In this document: positions 21,118 to 63,830 of the stretch, one piece after another
Numbering within the stretch: position 1 is the first letter of the stretch
Layout of the letters: the number at the start of each line of letters is the position of its first letter
Virus record (IMG/VR): IMGVR_UViG_3300027706_000269
Span: 27,817 to 91,816 of that record
Direction: 5' to 3' (one strand)
From: a virus
Length of the DNA: 64,000 bases
Made by a program: the position numbers and the translations under genes
Notes under the pieces: generated by a model
Told to the model about the DNA's origin: nothing
The model's input: only the letters and a program-made list of their open reading frames with translations
Database searches by the model: none

Positions 21118-21497
21118 GCTTTCTCCTCGAAGCGCCGCACGATCTCGCGCTGGGCCGCCCAGTCCACCGGCAGCGGGTGGCGCTGGAACCAGATCAGGCT
21201 CATCCGGCGTGGCTGCCGCCCGGCCATCAGCATCTCGACGATGTCGGGCGCGAGCAGCGTCAGGCGCAGCAGCTCGTTGACCACCGAGTGGTGCAGCCCT
21301 TCGGCACGCGCGATGGCCGAGCCGCTGGGCATCGCGCCGCTGTCTAGCAGCCGTTGCCAGTGGAAGGCCCGTGCCATCCCTTCGATGAGCGTGCTGTCGT
21401 GCGCGTCCCGGTCCTCGGCCTGGTGCTGAACCAGCCGGCGCACGCCGCGCCGCCGCAGGGTCAGCGGCACGAAGGTCTCGAGCGTCCCGTCCTTCAT
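21114..21497 (-). CDS. HTH protein of the serine recombinase cassette (proximal paralogue)
   Basis: I set the start at the ATG at 21497 because it overlaps the recombinase stop (ATGA); the longer frame only reads into the recombinase gene. The ~127-aa product shares 'LETFVPLTLRRRGVRRLV', 'FHWQRLLDSG' and an HTH ('AIARAEGLHHSVVNELLRLT') with the downstream gene. The pair probably arose by tandem duplication. A recombination directionality or DNA-binding accessory role is plausible but unproven. Confidence 0.65.
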   Translation of the reverse strand: MKDGTLETFVPLTLRRRGVRRLVQHQAEDRDAHDSTLIEGMARAFHWQRLLDSGAMPSGSAIARAEGLHHSVVNELLRLTLLAPDIVEMLMAGRQPRRMSLIWFQRHPLPVDWAAQREIVRRFEEKA

Positions 21498-22873
21498 GCC
21501 TCGACCTCCAGCAGCTCGGCGCCGATGCTCCTGGGCGCGAACTCGCCGATCAAGGCGTCCCAGCCCAGTTCGCGCCACTTCACCCGGATGCCCTGCATCT
21601 CGTCGGTGTGGACGAGATCGATGCGCTCGATCATCAGGTTGGCGATGCGGTGCTGCTCAACCGGGAAGAGCTGATCCCACACGTCGTTGAGGCGCCCCAT
21701 CGCCATCACGACCGTGGCCTCGTCGATCGGTGCGCCCTGGCGTTGGATGTGGCGCACGACGGCGGCGATGGATTCGGGGCTGGTCAGCACGGTGCGGATC
21801 TGGGCCACGACCGCCGCCTCGATCTCGCGGGCGGGCAGGCGCTCGTAGCTCTTGCCCGGCGCGCCGAAGCGGCTCTCGGACTTGGAGACGTAGTACTGGT
21901 ACTTGCGGCCGTTCTTGCGCGAGTACGTGGGGTACATGCGTTCGCCCGTCGGCGCGTACAGCAGCCCGCGCAGCAGCGCATCGTTGCGCGAGCGGATCTT
22001 GGTGTCCACCGACCGCGCGTGGCTGTCGCGGGCCAGCACCGCGTGAACCTGGTTCCACAGCTGGCGTTCGATGATCGGCTCGTGCACGCCGGGGTACCAC
22101 TGGCCCCGGTTCGACAACTCCCCGAGGTATATGCGGTTGCGCAGCACCTTGTGGATGTACTTCTTGTCGATGCGCGTGCCGGTCCGCACCCGCCCGTCCT
22201 GCGTCGTCCACGCCTTGGTCGTGATGCCCTCGGCGGTCAGGCGCGCTGCGATCTGCGTGGGTGAGCCAATGGTCAACATCTCCTCGAAGATGCGGCGCAC
22301 CACCGCCGCCTCGGCGGGGTTGACCACCAACTGGCGATTGACCACGTCGTAGCCGATGGTGGGCACGCCGCCCATCCACAGCCCCTTCTTCTTGGCCGCG
22401 GCGATCTTGTCGCGGATGCGCTCGCCCGTGACCTCGCGCTCGAACTGGGCGAAGGACAGCAGGATGTTGAGCGTGAGCCGCCCCATCGAGGTCGTGGTGT
22501 TGAACTGCTGCGTGACCGAGACGAAGGACACGCCGTGGCGCTCGAACACCTCGACCATCTTGGAGAAGTCGGCGAGGCTCCTCGTCAGGCGGTCGATCTT
22601 GTAGACCACCACGATGTCGATCAGCCCGCGCTGGATATCGGCCATCAGGCGCTTCAAGGCCGGGCGCTCGGTGTTGCCGCCGGAGTAGCCGGGGTCGTCG
22701 TAGTCGTCGGCCACCGGAATCCATCCCTCGGCGCGCTGGCTGGCGATGAAGGCGTGCCCGGCTTCCTTTTGCGCATCGATGGAGTTGAACTCCTGGTCGA
22801 GCCGCTCGTCCGACGACACCCGGCAGTAGACCGCACAGCGCTTGCGCGCCTTGGTGGAGGCGATTTCCGTCAT
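21494..22873 (-). CDS. Large serine recombinase (probable prophage integrase)
   Basis: The 459-aa enzyme has a resolvase domain (about 10-160) with the nucleophilic serine in 'YCRVSSDE' (S20), 'DRLTRSLADF' and 'GERIRDKI', followed by a recombinase domain (about 180-290) and a long C-terminal region. The zinc-ribbon segment ('LLRGLLYAPTGERMYPT') has no cysteines, so metal binding there is lost or replaced. I chose the ATG at 22873 because it overlaps the DUF2924 stop (TGATG). It is the only integrase-like gene in the window and borders the early region of prophage B, so it is its likely integrase. Confidence 0.85.
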   Translation of the reverse strand: MTEIASTKARKRCAVYCRVSSDERLDQEFNSIDAQKEAGHAFIASQRAEGWIPVADDYDDPGYSGGNTERPALKRLMADIQRGLIDIVVVYKIDRLTRSLADFSKMVEVFERHGVSFVSVTQQFNTTTSMGRLTLNILLSFAQFEREVTGERIRDKIAAAKKKGLWMGGVPTIGYDVVNRQLVVNPAEAAVVRRIFEEMLTIGSPTQIAARLTAEGITTKAWTTQDGRVRTGTRIDKKYIHKVLRNRIYLGELSNRGQWYPGVHEPIIERQLWNQVHAVLARDSHARSVDTKIRSRNDALLRGLLYAPTGERMYPTYSRKNGRKYQYYVSKSESRFGAPGKSYERLPAREIEAAVVAQIRTVLTSPESIAAVVRHIQRQGAPIDEATVVMAMGRLNDVWDQLFPVEQHRIANLMIERIDLVHTDEMQGIRVKWRELGWDALIGEFAPRSIGAELLEVEA

Positions 22874-23316
22874 CAGGCGCCTCCCTTCAGGCCGAAGAAC
22901 AGCGGGCCGCTCCAATGCTGGCCGGTGATGTGCCGCGCCACGGCGGTCAGGCTCTTGAAGCGGCGGCCTTCGTATTCGAAGTGACCATCGGCGTCAACCG
23001 TCACCCGGTGCTCGCGCTCGCCCCATTCGCGTAGCAGCACGGTGCCCGGTGCGAAGTCGAACTTGCGCGGGCGCGCGCGCAGTTTGATCTTGGAGTGCTT
23101 CGCGCCGATGGCCTCAAGGCGCTGGCGCGTTTCGGGTGCGAGTCCGCCGAAGGCTTCTTCCTGCAGCTTGTAGGCGATACGGGATTCGACATGGGTGCGG
23201 TTCGGAAACTCCGGGCGCCGCTCGAAGTACCGATCCCAGAGCACCCAGAGTTCGGCCATCGGCAGGTGACTCAGCTCGGCGATCCGCGCCGCGATGGAAG
23301 CTTGTTTCTCGTTCAT
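22873..23316 (-). CDS. DUF2924 family protein linked to serine recombinase
   Basis: The 147-aa basic product shows the DUF2924 pattern: 'LWDRYFERRPEFPNR', 'ESRIAYKLQEEAFGGL', and a C-terminal 'F.YEGR.FKSLTAVA..ITG' DNA-binding-like element. The family is almost always found next to large serine recombinases. A role in DNA binding or recombination control is inferred from this linkage. It starts at an ATG overlapping the upstream stop (TGATG), with AGGAGA just upstream, and overlaps the recombinase start. Confidence 0.8.
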   Translation of the reverse strand: MNEKQASIAARIAELSHLPMAELWVLWDRYFERRPEFPNRTHVESRIAYKLQEEAFGGLAPETRQRLEAIGAKHSKIKLRARPRKFDFAPGTVLLREWGEREHRVTVDADGHFEYEGRRFKSLTAVARHITGQHWSGPLFFGLKGGA

Positions 23317-23507
23317 CACAACTTCTCCTGTTGAGAGGGGGTTGTATGAACGCGCTGGTCGGGCAAGAAGCCAAGGCGAACCGCGCTCTGTTCCAGCCCG
23401 GAAGACCCGAGGGTACGGACGATGGCGGCCGCAAGGATGGTGGTGATTTCGCCAGCACGGGCGCTGGCGCTCATCTCTGCCGGAGATGCAAGTTCGAGGT
23501 TCTTCAT
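23316..23507 (-). CDS. Small protein heading the recombinase operon (63 aa)
   Basis: The 63-aa product starts at the ATG at 23507; a longer frame exists but lacks a better start. It has a hydrophobic helix ('EITTILAAAIVRTL') and ends in 'LGFLPDQRVHTTP', the translated form of a short sequence repeated upstream of three other genes in this window. Its stop overlaps the DUF2924 start (TGATG). Its position as first gene of the coupled cassette favours a real gene. Function unknown. Confidence 0.5.
   Translation of the reverse strand: MKNLELASPAEMSASARAGEITTILAAAIVRTLGSSGLEQSAVRLGFLPDQRVHTTPSQQEKL
23344..23379 (-). repeat. Dispersed ~35-nt upstream sequence, copy 3
   Basis: Read on the - strand this is CGCCTTGGCTTCTTGCCCGA followed by CCAGCGCGTTCAT, just upstream of the DUF2924 ATG. 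It matches three other copies (40441-40478, 40802-40838, 63479-63511) over the core CTTGGCTT...CAGCGCGTTCAT. Here it is also the 3' end of a 63-aa coding frame. Confidence 0.65.
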
Positions 23508-36069: not shown

Positions 36070-37674
36070 ATGCGGGGGGCGCGAGCGCGGCGCTTCGATA
36101 GCGTCAGGGTGCAAACCGAGGTTTGCAGGGTTTGCGGTTTGCAGCCCTCCAGCCCGAGACCTTCTCCCCGACACCCCCAGCCCGCCCACGGTCCGCCGTC
36201 GGCGGGCTTCTTCGTTTCCGAGGCACCGATTCTGGACACGCTCGCCGTCACGTACCGCAAGGTCGAGACGCTGATCCCCTACGCCCGCAATCCGCGCACG
36301 CACAGCGACGAGCAGATCGCGCGCATCGCCGCCAGCATCGCCGAGTTCGGCTGGACCAACCCGATCCTGGTCGATGGCGAGCACGGTGTGATCGCCGGTC
36401 ACGGCCGGCTGCTGGCCGCACGCAAGCTGGGGCTCGCCGAGGTGCCGGTGATCGAGCTTGCGCACCTGACGCCTGCGCAGAAGCGCGCCTACGTGATCGC
36501 CGACAACCGGCTCGCGCTCGATGCCGGCTGGGACCAGGCGATGTTGGCGCTGGAGTTCGCCGAACTGGCCGACGCCGGCTTCGATCTGGACCTGACCGGC
36601 TTCTCGGCCTCCGAGATCGAAGGCCTGCTCGACGCCATCGAGAAGACGGAACCGTCCGCCGAAGAGGACACGAGCGCTTTGGTCCGCGACCCGGACGAGG
36701 ACGACGTCACACCGCCCGCGGTGGCGGTCACACGCCCCCGCGATCTGTGGCTGATCGGTGAACACCGACTGCTCTGCGCCGACAGCCGCGACGCGGCCGC
36801 CGTCGCGCGCCTCCTCGAGGGCGAGCGGGCGCACCTGCTCTTCACCAGCCCACCGTATGCCAACCAGCGCGACTACACCACCGGCGGCATCGCGGACTGG
36901 GACGCGTTGATGCAGGGCGTGTTCGGCGCTGCCCGCGCGGCACTGCGCGAGGACGCGCAACTCCTGGTCAACCTCGGGCTCGTGCATCGCGACAACGAGT
37001 GGCAGCCGTACTGGGACGGCTGGATCGAGTGGATGCGCACGCAGGGCTTTCGGCGCTTCGGCTGGTACGTGTGGGACCAGTCGGTGACCGTGCCCGGCGA
37101 CTGGGCCGGGCGGCTGGCGCCCCGCCACGAGTTCGTCTTCCACTTCAACCGACGCTCGCGCAAGCCGAACAAGATCGTGCCCTGCAAGTGGGCCGGGCAC
37201 GAGACGCACCTGCGCGCCGACGGATCGTCCACCGCGATGCGCGGCAAGGACGGCAAGGTCGGCGCCTGGAACCATGCCGGACAGCCCACGCAGGCGTTCC
37301 GCATCCCGGACTCGGTCGTCGAGGTGACGCGCCAGCGCGGCCGCATCGGTGAAGGCATCGATCATCCGGCGGTGTTCCCGCTGGGCCTGCCGAAGTTCTT
37401 CATCGAGGCCTACACCGACGCGGGCGAGATCGTCTTCGAGCCGTTCGCGGGCTCGGGCACCACGCTGCTGGCCGGCCAACTCACCGGCCGCCCGGTACGC
37501 GCCATCGAACTCGCTCCAGAGTACGTGGACGTCGCGCTGCGCCGCTGGCTGCAGCACCACCCGGGCACGGTGCCGGTGCTGGAGGGCAGCGGCCGGACCT
37601 TCGACGAGGTGGCGGCCGAACGTACCGTCAGTAGTGGTAGCGCCCCTGGAGGAACTCGACGCGATCGGCCTTGA
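36070..37674 (+). CDS. ParB-domain DNA methyltransferase, SPPY (N4-cytosine type)
   Basis: The 534-codon frame encodes a ParB/Srx-like domain ('ARNPRTHSDEQIARIAASIA', 'VIAGHGRLLAARKLG'), then a beta-class methylase with catalytic 'TSPPYANQRDY' and SAM motif 'FEPFAGSGTT'. SPPY usually indicates m4C. The start is uncertain: the first ~55 codons cover a hairpin and look non-coding, yet no ATG, GTG or TTG lies between the hairpin and the ParB domain. The last 16 residues are read from DNA shared with the antisense yoeB gene. Phage methylases of this kind protect phage DNA from host restriction. Confidence 0.82.
   Translation: MRGARARRFDSVRVQTEVCRVCGLQPSSPRPSPRHPQPAHGPPSAGFFVSEAPILDTLAVTYRKVETLIPYARNPRTHSDEQIARIAASIAEFGWTNPILVDGEHGVIAGHGRLLAARKLGLAEVPVIELAHLTPAQKRAYVIADNRLALDAGWDQAMLALEFAELADAGFDLDLTGFSASEIEGLLDAIEKTEPSAEEDTSALVRDPDEDDVTPPAVAVTRPRDLWLIGEHRLLCADSRDAAAVARLLEGERAHLLFTSPPYANQRDYTTGGIADWDALMQGVFGAARAALREDAQLLVNLGLVHRDNEWQPYWDGWIEWMRTQGFRRFGWYVWDQSVTVPGDWAGRLAPRHEFVFHFNRRSRKPNKIVPCKWAGHETHLRADGSSTAMRGKDGKVGAWNHAGQPTQAFRIPDSVVEVTRQRGRIGEGIDHPAVFPLGLPKFFIEAYTDAGEIVFEPFAGSGTTLLAGQLTGRPVRAIELAPEYVDVALRRWLQHHPGTVPVLEGSGRTFDEVAAERTVSSGSAPGGTRRDRP
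36180..36217 (+). terminator. Terminator-like hairpin inside the 5' part of the methyltransferase frame
   Basis: GCCCGCC (36180-36186) and GGCGGGC (36201-36207), with an inner ACGG/CCGT pairing, are followed by TTCTTCGTTT. It resembles the GGCGGGTTCGTCGTTT hairpins at 48261 and 62181 that precede gene starts. It suggests the true coding start may lie downstream, perhaps at a non-canonical codon. Confidence 0.5.
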
Positions 37675-37900
37675 CCAGATAGACGCAGCGATGCTCCTGG
37701 GTGATGCGTCGCGACCAGACGTCCGGGCCGAGGTATTTCAGCGGCTCGGGTTTGCCGATGCCATCGAAGGGATCGCGCAGCACCGCCTCGACGAGTTCGA
37801 GCAAGCGGCGGGCGGTGCGACGGTCGGTCTCCACCCAATGACGCAGGTCTTCGAGAAATTCCGGATGGCAGACCGCAAGCCGCGAGGCCTCACGCTTCAA
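37628..37900 (-). CDS. yoeB: YoeB-family toxin
   Basis: The 90-aa product shows the YoeB pattern: 'FLEDLRHWVETDRRTARRLL', 'DPFDGIGKPEPLKYLGPDVWSR', then 'RRITQEHRCVYLV' and a C-terminal 'QGRYHY'. These toxins cleave mRNA on the ribosome. Translation probably starts at the TTG at 37900, inside the antitoxin gene (11-bp overlap). The 3' end is antisense to the last 47 bp of the preceding methyltransferase frame. Confidence 0.88.
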   Translation of the reverse strand: MKREASRLAVCHPEFLEDLRHWVETDRRTARRLLELVEAVLRDPFDGIGKPEPLKYLGPDVWSRRITQEHRCVYLVKADRVEFLQGRYHY

Positions 37901-38171
37901 GGTCGGCGTCCTGCTTGAGCTGGGCGAGCGTCGTGGGCTTCAGGCTTGTCGTGCGTGCCCGGTTGAGGGCCGTGAGCAGCCGTTCGGCGTTCTTGGCCGA
38001 GCGCAGCAGGTGCGCCGTTTCCATCAAGCCTTCGAGCTCATCGGCCGCGATCATCGCCACGGCTCCTCCCGAGCGACGGCGCACCACGATGACCTCGCGA
38101 TCGTCCACGGCGCGGTCCATCAGCGCCTTGAGCTGCTCGCGCGCCTGGCTGTAGGTGGTTTCGATGGTCAT
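37890..38171 (-). CDS. yefM: YefM/Phd-family antitoxin
   Basis: The 93-aa product has the Phd/YefM N-domain ('TTYSQAREQLKALMDRAVDD', 'VVRRRSGGAVAMIAADELEG') followed by the toxin-binding tail. I set the start at the ATG at 38171; the longer frame would run into the promoter region. A TACAAT -10-like box lies 29-34 bp upstream on the - strand (38205-38200), without a clear -35. The pair is divergent from the next methyltransferase and sits between two + strand genes. Confidence 0.88.
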   Translation of the reverse strand: MTIETTYSQAREQLKALMDRAVDDREVIVVRRRSGGAVAMIAADELEGLMETAHLLRSAKNAERLLTALNRARTTSLKPTTLAQLKQDADLEA

Positions 38172-38211
38172 GGCGGCACCTCTGGAATTGGACAGAAGTA
38201 TTGTACAGGAA

Positions 38212-39483
38212 ATGAACGCCCACTGGCTGGCCGATCGCATCGAGCTCTGGCCGATCGACAAGCTGCTGCCCTACGTGCGCAATGCCCGCCAGCACTCGGA
38301 CGAGCAGATCGCCCAGATCGCGGCCTCCATCGCGGAGTTCGGCTTCGTCAATCCCATTCTCACCGGCGCCGACGGTGTGCTGGTCGCGGGCCATGGGCGG
38401 CTTGCCGCCGCGCGCAAGCTGGGCCTGCCCACAGTGCCGGTGGTCGTGCTCGATCACCTCACGCCGACCCAGCGCCGCGCCCTGGTGCTCGCGGACAACC
38501 GGCTCGCGGAACTCGCGACCTGGGACGATGCCCTGCTGCGCATCGAACTGGAGGCGCTGCAGGACGATGGCTTCGATCTCGATCTCACCGGATTCGACGC
38601 CGATGCACTGGCAGAACTGCTGGCCGATGAGGAACCACAGATCGAGGGCCGGACGGAGGACGATGCCATCCCGGAGATGCCGGAAGAGCCGGTGTCTCGG
38701 CCGGGCGACGTCTGGCGGCTCGGGCCGCACCGCCTGGTCTGCGGGGACGCGACCACCGCCGAGGCCTATGCGCGCCTGTTTCCGGACGGCGAGCGGGCGG
38801 ACATGGTGTTCACCGATCCGCCCTACAACGTGAACTACGCCAACAGCGCGAAGGACAAGCTGCGCGGCAAACACCGCCCCATCCTCAACGATGCGCTGGG
38901 CGAAGGCTTCTACGATTTCCTCTTTGATGCGCTGGCGCTGATCATGGCGCACACCCGAGGCGCGATCTACGTCGCCATGTCCTCCAGCGAACTGGACACG
39001 CTGCAAGCGGCCTTCCGCGCCGCCGGCGGGCACTGGTCGACCTTCATCATCTGGGCCAAGAACACCTTCACGCTGGGCCGCTCGGACTACCAGCGCCAGT
39101 ACGAGCCGATCCTCTACGGCTGGCCCGAAGGCGCGACGCGCCACTGGTGCGGCGACCGCGACCAGGGCGACGTCTGGCAGATCAAGAAGCCAGCGAAGAA
39201 CGATCTGCACCCGACCATGAAGCCGGTGGATCTGGTCGAGCGGGCCATCCGCAACTCCAGCCGCCCCGGCGACGTGGTGCTCGACCCCTTCGGCGGCTCG
39301 GGCACGACCTTGATCGCCGCTGAGAAGGCCGGGCGCGTGGCGCGGCTGATCGAGCTCGACCCGAAGTATGCGGACGTGATCGTGCGGCGCTGGCAGGACT
39401 GGACGGGCCAGCAAGCCACCCGCGAGGCGGATGGCCTGGCCTTCGATCAGGCGGCGAGCGACTCGTCGGCGATCGCGCAGTGA
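38212..39483 (+). CDS. ParB-domain DNA methyltransferase, DPPY (N6-adenine type)
   Basis: The 423-aa product starts at an ATG with AGGA upstream. It has a ParB-like N-domain ('ARQHSDEQIAQIAASIAEFG', 'VLVAGHGRLAAARKLG') and a beta-class methylase with 'FTDPPYNVNY' and 'LDPFGGSGTT'. DPPY indicates adenine-N6 methylation. It is a distant paralogue of the SPPY enzyme at 36070, and the two are split by a toxin-antitoxin pair. Together they could modify both A and C in phage DNA. Confidence 0.9.
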   Translation: MNAHWLADRIELWPIDKLLPYVRNARQHSDEQIAQIAASIAEFGFVNPILTGADGVLVAGHGRLAAARKLGLPTVPVVVLDHLTPTQRRALVLADNRLAELATWDDALLRIELEALQDDGFDLDLTGFDADALAELLADEEPQIEGRTEDDAIPEMPEEPVSRPGDVWRLGPHRLVCGDATTAEAYARLFPDGERADMVFTDPPYNVNYANSAKDKLRGKHRPILNDALGEGFYDFLFDALALIMAHTRGAIYVAMSSSELDTLQAAFRAAGGHWSTFIIWAKNTFTLGRSDYQRQYEPILYGWPEGATRHWCGDRDQGDVWQIKKPAKNDLHPTMKPVDLVERAIRNSSRPGDVVLDPFGGSGTTLIAAEKAGRVARLIELDPKYADVIVRRWQDWTGQQATREADGLAFDQAASDSSAIAQ

Positions 39484-39539: not shown

Positions 39540-40127
39540 TCAGGCAAGCCGGTAGACGCGCTCGCCGCCCGGGGATCTCTCGGAGACGATCGTCAGGCCC
39601 AGTTTCTTCTTCAGCGCCCCGGCCAAGGTGCCGCGCACCGTGTGCGCCTGCCAGCCGGTGCTGTCCATGATCTGGCGGAGGGTGGCGCCTTCGGGACGCT
39701 GCAGCATCGCGATCACCTGCGCCTGCTTGCTGTGGGCGCGGGGGCGGCGCGGCTCGGCGCTGCGATGCGCATCCTGCGCCCAGGCCGATTCGGCGGCGTT
39801 CACCGCCGCCTCCAGGTCGGCCTCGTCGCGCGCCGTCTGCGCCTGCTCGGCCCGGGCGATCACCGCACCGAGTTTCGCAACGAAGGACTGGCGCGGGGCG
39901 GTGCGGGCACCCGGGCGCGGCACGCCCAAGGCCTCGTAGCCTGCGTCGGCAACGACCCAGACCTCGCCCTGGCGGGCGATCAGGGCGCGGTTGGCCAGGC
40001 CGTCGAGCACCTTGCGGCGGGCACCGCCTTGGATGTGCTCGGGGAACCAGTCGATTCGGCCGTCGCTGTGCTCGAGCGCATGGGCCAGGATCGCGTGCTG
40101 GGCGGGGGTCAGGGTGATGGTGCTCAT
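39540..40127 (-). CDS. DUF3489 family winged-helix protein
   Basis: I chose the ATG at 40127 with AGGAG upstream. The 195-aa product has an N-terminal helical domain ('LTPAQHAILAHALEHSDGRI') and a C-terminal DUF3489 winged helix ('SKQAQVIAMLQRPEGATLRQ', 'HTVRGTLAGALKKKLGL'). It probably binds DNA. It is the last of three - strand genes between the methyltransferase and the terminase genes, opposite to the late operon, and may regulate it. Confidence 0.75.
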   Translation of the reverse strand: MSTITLTPAQHAILAHALEHSDGRIDWFPEHIQGGARRKVLDGLANRALIARQGEVWVVADAGYEALGVPRPGARTAPRQSFVAKLGAVIARAEQAQTARDEADLEAAVNAAESAWAQDAHRSAEPRRPRAHSKQAQVIAMLQRPEGATLRQIMDSTGWQAHTVRGTLAGALKKKLGLTIVSERSPGGERVYRLA

Positions 40128-40161: not shown

Positions 40162-40407
40162 TCAGTCTTCCCAGAGGTGCTCGCCATCGAGGCTGATCCA
40201 CAGGCGCGCATCGCGCGCGGTGGCCATCTCGCGCACCGCCAAGCCGGTTTTGAGGTGGGTGCCGGTCTTGCCGGTGAAGTCGTAACGCTGGCCGTCGTGC
40301 ATCACGGTCGCTGGGCCTTGCTCGTCGAACTCGATTCGGATCAGGCGGGTGCCGAGGGCGTTTCCGTTGGTGTCGGTGACCTGGGGTTGGCGGATGCGCA
40401 GGGTCAT
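40162..40407 (-). CDS. Small protein of the antisense cluster before terminase (81 aa)
   Basis: The 81-aa product starts at an ATG with AAGGAG upstream. It is beta-rich ('TRLIRIEFDEQGPATVMHDG', 'RYDFTGKTGTHLKTGL'). It is followed 34 bp later by the DUF3489 gene. A dispersed ~35-nt sequence lies just upstream. The frame is open through it, so a longer start at 40494 is possible but less likely. Function unknown. Confidence 0.55.
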   Translation of the reverse strand: MTLRIRQPQVTDTNGNALGTRLIRIEFDEQGPATVMHDGQRYDFTGKTGTHLKTGLAVREMATARDARLWISLDGEHLWED

Positions 40408-40440: not shown

Positions 40441-40490
40441 GTGATGAACGCGCTGTTCGCGTGAGAAGCCAAGCGTTCTTGCTTGGCTTC
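40441..40490 (-). repeat. Dispersed ~35-nt upstream sequence, copy 1, with adjoining hairpin
   Basis: On the - strand, GAACGCTTGGCTTCTCACGC followed by GAACAGCGCGTTCATCAC (40478-40441) lies upstream of the 81-aa gene. A perfect 10-bp inverted repeat, GAAGCCAAGC (40465-40474) / GCTTGGCTTC (40481-40490), overlaps it. The core matches copies at 23344, 40802 and 63479. Confidence 0.65.
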
Positions 40491-40500
40491 GCATTGCTCG

Positions 40501-40767
40501 TCAGACCTTGCGCAACACCGAGATGCCGGCCTGCGCCAGTTCGAGCGCGGCGGCGTGGAAGGCCATCTCGCCGACCCAGGGCGCAGCCCTTGCGTCGTCA
40601 AACAAGCGGTCGATGACCGGCCGGGCCTTGGCGCGCATCGCGGCGCAGGCGGCTTCGAGCTCGTCGCGGCTGGCGGCGGCCACCTCCTTGCGGCAAGTGC
40701 GCACCAGCACGGTCAGGGCGGCCTCGGCGAGCTTGGTGGCGAGAAGGTCGGGGATGTGGGGGTTCAT
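40501..40767 (-). CDS. Small helical phage protein of the antisense cluster (88 aa)
   Basis: The 88-aa product starts at the ATG at 40767 with AAAGGA upstream. It is all-helical ('LATKLAEAALTVLVRTCRKE', 'LEAACAAMRAKARPVIDRLF'). It is transcribed toward the other two antisense genes and away from the terminase operon, which starts 120 bp to its right. No family is recognised. Confidence 0.55.
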   Translation of the reverse strand: MNPHIPDLLATKLAEAALTVLVRTCRKEVAAASRDELEAACAAMRAKARPVIDRLFDDARAAPWVGEMAFHAAALELAQAGISVLRKV

Positions 40768-40801
40768 CGGGCGTCCTTTCGGTCGGGTGGTTCGGAGTGA
40801 C

Positions 40802-40838
40802 GTGATGAACGCGCTTCTCGCCCGTGAAGCCAAGCGTT
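40802..40838 (-). repeat. Dispersed ~35-nt upstream sequence, copy 2
   Basis: On the - strand, AACGCTTGGCTTCACGGGCG followed by AGAAGCGCGTTCATCAC lies 35 nt upstream of the 88-aa gene. It matches the other copies in core sequence and in its distance to the start codon, although the gene frame relative to the repeat differs. Confidence 0.65.
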
Positions 40839-63478: not shown

Positions 63479-63511
63479 GCGCTTGGCTTTTCGCCGGAAC
63501 AGCGCGTTCAT
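63479..63511 (+). repeat. Dispersed ~35-nt upstream sequence, copy 4
   Basis: GCGCTTGGCTTTTCGCCGGA followed by ACAGCGCGTTCAT matches the three other copies, here on the + strand and 28 nt before the ATG of the next gene. It stands between the lysozyme gene and a gene of unknown function at 63540. Confidence 0.65.
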
Positions 63512-63539: not shown

Positions 63540-63830
63540 ATGACCCCCCGATTCAGGAAAGCCATCATCGACGACGTCACCGCAGCGAACATCGACGACA
63601 AGCTGCAGAGCAGCCTGCTCGAATTCTTTGAGTATGCCATGAAGTCAGTCGCGCCCACGCTGGTGAGAGAGGCACGATTCGACACCACCGACTTCGCCAC
63701 GTCTCGTCAACGCGGATGCGAGGGCTTCGCCATGCTCATCAGCCGCGCCCGCGCCGATTCGAGAGACTCCTGGTTCGGCGCGTTCCAGCGTGGTGACCAG
63801 CGGCTCGACGTGGTCGGGCACCTCGAGTAG
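63540..63830 (+). CDS. Small protein of unknown function at the right end (96 aa)
   Basis: The 96-aa product starts at ATG 63540 with GGAG 8 nt upstream, following a copy of the dispersed repeat. The first ~55 residues look like a normal helical protein ('IDDKLQSSLLEFFEYAMKSV'). The rest overlaps an antisense frame. Either the gene is short and the last part is read-through, or an indel has altered its end. No family is recognised. Confidence 0.45.
   Translation: MTPRFRKAIIDDVTAANIDDKLQSSLLEFFEYAMKSVAPTLVREARFDTTDFATSRQRGCEGFAMLISRARADSRDSWFGAFQRGDQRLDVVGHLE

Follow-up and report, generated by a model that had tools for sequence, protein, structure and literature searches.

A repeated element before unrelated genes

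The stretch of viral DNA analysed here (the window; 64,000 nucleotides, bases 27817-91816 of a 91,816-base viral record) carries four copies of an asymmetric element, each standing shortly before a gene (Table 1). Behind copy 1 lie a DUF2924 gene and a large serine recombinase; behind copy 2, an 81-aa gene and then a DUF3489 gene; and behind copies 3 and 4, an 88-aa and a 96-aa gene, respectively. Copies 2 and 3, with their genes and DUF3489, run in the opposite direction to the terminase, and copy 4 with the 96-aa gene is found beyond the tail genes; relatives of the 96-aa gene also stand behind the element in other phages. The record appears to contain a tandem of two related phage units of lambda type, separated by about 48.5 kb. 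Two adjacent genes at 36070-39483 of the window each combine a ParB N-terminal domain with a DNA methylase, both genes being conserved throughout this phage family.

Table 1 Copies of the element in the window and the genes behind them
Feature	Position	Strand	Evidence and remarks
Element copy 1, CTTGGCTTCTTGCCCGACCAGCGCGTTCAT	23346..23375	-	Exact match; ATG at 23316
DUF2924 gene behind copy 1	22873..23316	-	PF11149, E 8.6e-50
Large serine recombinase behind DUF2924	21494..22885	-	PF00239, PF07508; PHROG integrase
Element copy 2, CTTGGCTTCTCACGCGAACAGCGCGTTCAT	40444..40473	-	Exact match; predicted transcription start ~40437; ATG at 40407
81-aa gene behind copy 2	40162..40407	-	Open frame; matches no family
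DUF3489 gene behind 81-aa gene	39540..40127	-	PF11994, E 2.1e-31; candidate reader of the element
Element copy 3, CTTGGCTTCACGGGCGAGAAGCGCGTTCAT	40805..40834	-	Exact match; predicted transcription start ~40798; ATG at 40767
88-aa gene behind copy 3	40501..40767	-	phrog_36268, unknown function
Element copy 4, CTTGGCTTTTCGCCGGAACAGCGCGTTCAT	63482..63511	+	Exact match; ATG at 63540
96-aa gene behind copy 4	63540..63830	+	Open frame; matches no family

The preliminary description of this DNA had reported a common core at four sites shortly before the ATG of unrelated genes, and these observations were borne out. The core, CTTGGCTT-N11-AGCGCGTTCAT, is present at all four sites with no mismatches and identical spacing, against 0.01 expected in shuffled sequence. 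Its CAT end precedes the ATG by 29, 36, 37 and 28 nt in copies 1-4, respectively, and the four downstream genes are unrelated to one another. The whole record holds eight exact copies of the core, four of them outside the window, and a backwards control gave none. Pattern scans for the core retrieved at least 119 stretches from IMG/VR and at least 118 from GTDB genomes; those among the matches listed are mainly beta- and gamma-proteobacterial prophages, kin of Acidithiobacillus phage AcaML1. Because these scans pick exact letters, conservation at the core letters is partly by construction, and loci chosen by the DUF3489 protein rather than by the letters of the element served as the unbiased test of conservation. 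Matches with two mismatches in whole bacterial genomes were left out of the counts; some of them are chance, since the backwards control also yields a few.

For the 447 copies that have an open frame downstream, the start codon mostly lies 29-37 nt 3' of the motif, and the genes that follow fall into many unrelated clusters. Nearly every strong match in 14 phage records precedes a gene. The genes led by the element comprise the integration operon, DUF3489, DUF6900 and several small genes of unknown function, with a small HTH gene in one subgroup. On one fragment (G029; L282 6250-19861) the element precedes a defence cluster composed of DUF499, DarT/DarG, a DUF1156 methylase, a PLD helicase and GmrSD, the first small gene of which begins, by inspection, ~170 nt from the element.

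The preliminary description had offered a leader peptide, an RNA regulatory element or a small mobile repeat as possible explanations. Its underlying idea, that the genes share a regulatory element linked to their starts, is retained here, and none of the three specific forms is. A leader of either kind would fit the position of the element directly before start codons and the apparent conservation of an LGF..EQRVH reading frame. The letters of this frame are indeed present, without the coding constraint that had been read into them: stops occur at the chance rate (0.040 versus 0.041 expected), the frame has no fixed phase to the gene, the distance from motif to ATG covering all three frames, about half of the copies have no upstream start codon, and several codons never vary synonymously, yet H is replaced by T, N or Y. 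The leader peptide was rejected for this absence of coding constraint. No Rfam family was matched in the window and no covarying structure was found in an alignment of 113 diverse copies, a few of which are chance matches in coding DNA; on these two results a structured RNA was rejected as well, and transcription probably starts downstream of the motif. Taken together, a leader peptide or structured RNA leader is very improbable. The mobile repeat was discarded because the copies have only the core in common and keep a single orientation and a fixed distance to the starts of unrelated genes.

Promoter-like anatomy

Copies were aligned on the motif with weighting for redundancy. The aligned copies read TTGGCT, 17 bp, then GTTCAT, with a predicted transcription start seven bases further. 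TTGGCT agrees with TTGACA at four of six positions, and the variants TTGACT and TTGATT exist. The spacer, fixed at 17 bp in all copies by the search pattern, lies within the 16-18 bp range. GTTCAT agrees with TATAAT at three of six positions and has T at -11, and a scan with the sigma-70 consensus called no promoter at the element. A conserved block spans approximately -21 to -7 and thereby overlaps the -10 hexamer.

Two further features involve letters that played no part in the selection of copies. The predicted start is flanked by C or T on its 5' side in 98% of copies and on its 3' side in 95% (YRY), with a purine at the predicted +1 in only 76% and C in two of the four window copies. Upstream, A/T content rises from a background near 0.37 to maxima at -41, -52 and -63, with values of 0.84, 0.40 and 0.50, respectively, in the DUF2924 class, 0.87, 0.55 and 0.63 in the DUF3489 class, and 0.66, 0.82 and 0.73 in the 122-aa class; between the peaks the values are lower in nearly all gene classes. 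A/T phasing at these positions is expected where the C-terminal domain of the RNA polymerase alpha subunit binds DNA (UP elements). The element thus resembles a sigma-70 promoter with an UP element in its TTG-type -35, 17-bp spacer, invariant T at -7, phased A/T tracts at alpha-subunit positions and YRY start, and differs from one in its GTTCAT -10 (T for A at -11) and in the strictly conserved GC-rich block ahead of it.

A variant located near DUF3489 genes that are without the main form is composed of TTGATT, the same 17-bp spacer and GAAGCGTTCAT; an exact search of IMG/VR for it returned no match. Two candidate features were dropped. An upstream inverted repeat, GAAGCCAAGC..GCTTGGCTTC, formed with the -35 block (40464-40492 in the window), occurs in only ~12% of weighted copies, mainly before DUF3489-type genes; a GAAC..GTTC hairpin inside the motif was abandoned because the DUF2924 class breaks it.

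Judged by its sequence anatomy, the element is very probably a promoter, the poor sigma-70 fit of its -10 being the weakest part of this assignment. Host RNA polymerase would most likely bind TTGGCT as the -35, the non-consensus GTTCAT as the -10 and the A/T-rich, UP-like region. Transcription would then begin ~7 nt past GTTCAT, leaving a 5' leader of ~23-31 nt. The one-element-per-gene layout of the variable arrays, together with the element before the recombinase operon, could also be taken to mean that the element is a recombinase site at which single-gene cassettes of the array are shuffled. We give this idea hardly any weight, since the element is asymmetric, always lies upstream at promoter distance, is accompanied by UP-like and start signals, and is also found singly away from arrays.

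Base -15 and the candidate reader

In other phages these gene families are preceded, at unchanged distances, by a second form of the element in which AGAGCG replaces AGCGCG. The two forms, or dialects, differ at base -15 and are rarely mixed: contigs of the C type contain 131 extra C copies and no A, and contigs of the A type contain 16 A and one C (Fisher p 2e-21, run on 17 A and one C, which 16 A and one C alters little). Within one prophage, the site before DUF2924 and those in the array agree in 16 of 16 pairs (12 C-C and four A-A; p 5e-4), although most pairs are separated by 14-18 kb and one by 6 kb, and the sole mismatched pair in the table links two different prophages on one contig. 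Such change in concert at distant sites points to a regulator encoded by the phage as the probable reader of the -21 to -7 block. An assembled genome labelled as an alphaproteobacterial MAG (G059) has prophages of both dialects, with six DUF3489 loci divided between them (L396, L402, L405, L407, L408 and L409); unless this MAG is a mixture, the host does not set the letter at -15. On the pattern of these letters, a reader encoded by the phage appears the simplest account of the dialects, and we hold it to be rather likely.

Candidates for the reader were considered in the light of linkage and fold. DUF3489 is present in 28 of the 30 element-bearing viral records; one of the two others has a DUF3489-like gene cut by the contig end behind the element, and the other is a 30.6-kb fragment. 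Conversely, all 80 IMG/VR loci chosen solely by DUF3489 protein patterns carry the element on the same strand with at most two mismatches, 71 of them exactly, and the reversed control gave none. The link is looser in whole genomes, where 26 of the 30 element-bearing genomes contain DUF3489. In the remaining four the element precedes DUF2924, and in one of them also a 96-aa-type gene; two of these (L149 and L185) have DUF2924-recombinase genes with an intact element adjoining smpB. Such DUF2924 loci in genomes without DUF3489 are probably remnants. At some DUF3489 or DUF2924 loci no element can be recognised.

The structural model of DUF3489 shows confident N- and C-terminal winged-helix domains (mean pLDDT 82.8), and the closest solved structures are winged-helix regulators, with weak matches (best E 0.04). 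When 188 DUF3489 proteins are placed on a tree, the dialects cluster strongly, with at least five changes; this clustering could stem from plain co-inheritance. The one literature passage at hand that touches DUF2924/DUF3489 concerns fold assignment. Linkage and fold make DUF3489 the leading candidate for the reader. Its role as sole reader is weakened by the genomes that have the element and DUF2924 without DUF3489, so we propose it tentatively, DUF2924 or other proteins being possible readers as well.

Regulatory interpretation and relation to known systems

Two conserved -35/-10 blocks at fixed spacing, with a -10 unlike TATAAT, could be what an alternative sigma factor, encoded by phage or host, recognises without any separate regulator. 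Conservation from -21 into the spacer exceeds the usual contacts of sigma, no sigma factor was found in the subset of AcaML1 proteins scanned (20 early and array proteins), and a host sigma is disfavoured by the two dialects in one assembled genome; we consider this explanation unlikely. The -21 to -7 block may instead be the operator of a phage repressor, overlapping an otherwise ordinary promoter; the genes would be shut off in the lysogen and switched on by induction, a scheme like that of the stoperators of mycobacteriophages. Cluster A mycobacteriophages have many stoperators, asymmetric oriented sites with a phage-encoded reader and phage-specific spelling, which bind repressor, halt transcription and are scattered between genes. 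The element is like them in its many asymmetric oriented sites, phage-specific spelling and putative phage reader, and unlike them in that each copy lies at the start of a gene with the complete geometry of a promoter. A repressor would account for the overlap of the block with the -10, for many sites in a single orientation, and for dialects in which repressor and sites change together. A poor -10 suits activation more than repression, and one copy precedes a cluster of defence genes, which would have to be expressed in the lysogen to be of any use. This possibility, to which we assign a minority share, is a variant of the explanation that we prefer, with the sign of regulation fixed.

The preferred explanation, which we consider likely overall, is that the element is a prophage-borne promoter/operator with a phage-encoded reader. 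Separate copies would lead the DUF2924-recombinase operon, the small-gene array to which DUF3489 belongs, and various cargo genes, and because the element stands separately before each, these genes would be tied into one regulon. In the best reading, the regulon defined by this portable prophage promoter/operator takes in genes for integration, small cargo genes and, in some cases, genes for defence. Since defence genes help a prophage only if they are expressed in the lysogen, at least some copies would be active in lysogeny. A more specific and more doubtful proposal is that DUF3489, with its two winged helices, directs host RNA polymerase to promoters that contain its own binding block at the -10, and that -15 and the reader have switched together repeatedly, with the dialects coexisting in one cell.

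The nearest known concept is that of the start-associated repeats SAS and ESAS of cluster K mycobacteriophages, short repeats found in one orientation before many unrelated gene starts; ESAS contain putative promoters and vary in consensus by subcluster (PMC3203893, PMC11373665). SAS, which the former paper contrasts with stoperators, are separated from the start codon by 3-9 bp, and ESAS include an inverted repeat of 17 bp (PMC3203893, PMC11373665). The present element is likewise an oriented repeat before unrelated gene starts with a subgroup-specific consensus. It differs in sequence and hosts, lacks symmetry and leaves 29-37 nt between its end and the start codon; it has neither the 13-bp GGGATAGGAGCCC close to the start codon nor a 17-bp inverted repeat.

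The closest described relative is the Acidithiobacillus caldus prophage AcaML1 (JX507079), which has four exact copies and the same gene order, the copies preceding DUF2924, a DUF6900-like gene and two other array genes. Neither record JX507079 nor the literature searched on AcaML1 contains a description of the element. In AcaML1, gp33 (L248 22018-22479), annotated as terminase small subunit, overlaps the element-led DUF6900-like gene on the opposite strand, and one of the two annotations is probably wrong. The attB of AcaML1 is given as 'srrA' in one paper, perhaps for ssrA. No description of the element was found in the literature searched, most subscription papers lying outside it; the element may thus be a new addition to the repeated promoter/operator families of phages, one with dialects and broad hosts.

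With the element, a single signature can be used to search for the coordinated genes of a prophage family that is widespread and little described, covering its integration genes, many small proteins of unknown function and, in some cases, anti-phage defence genes. The dialects offer a natural experiment on the joint change of a regulator and its scattered sites, and through them DUF3489, a family that has been without a function, gains one that can be tested.
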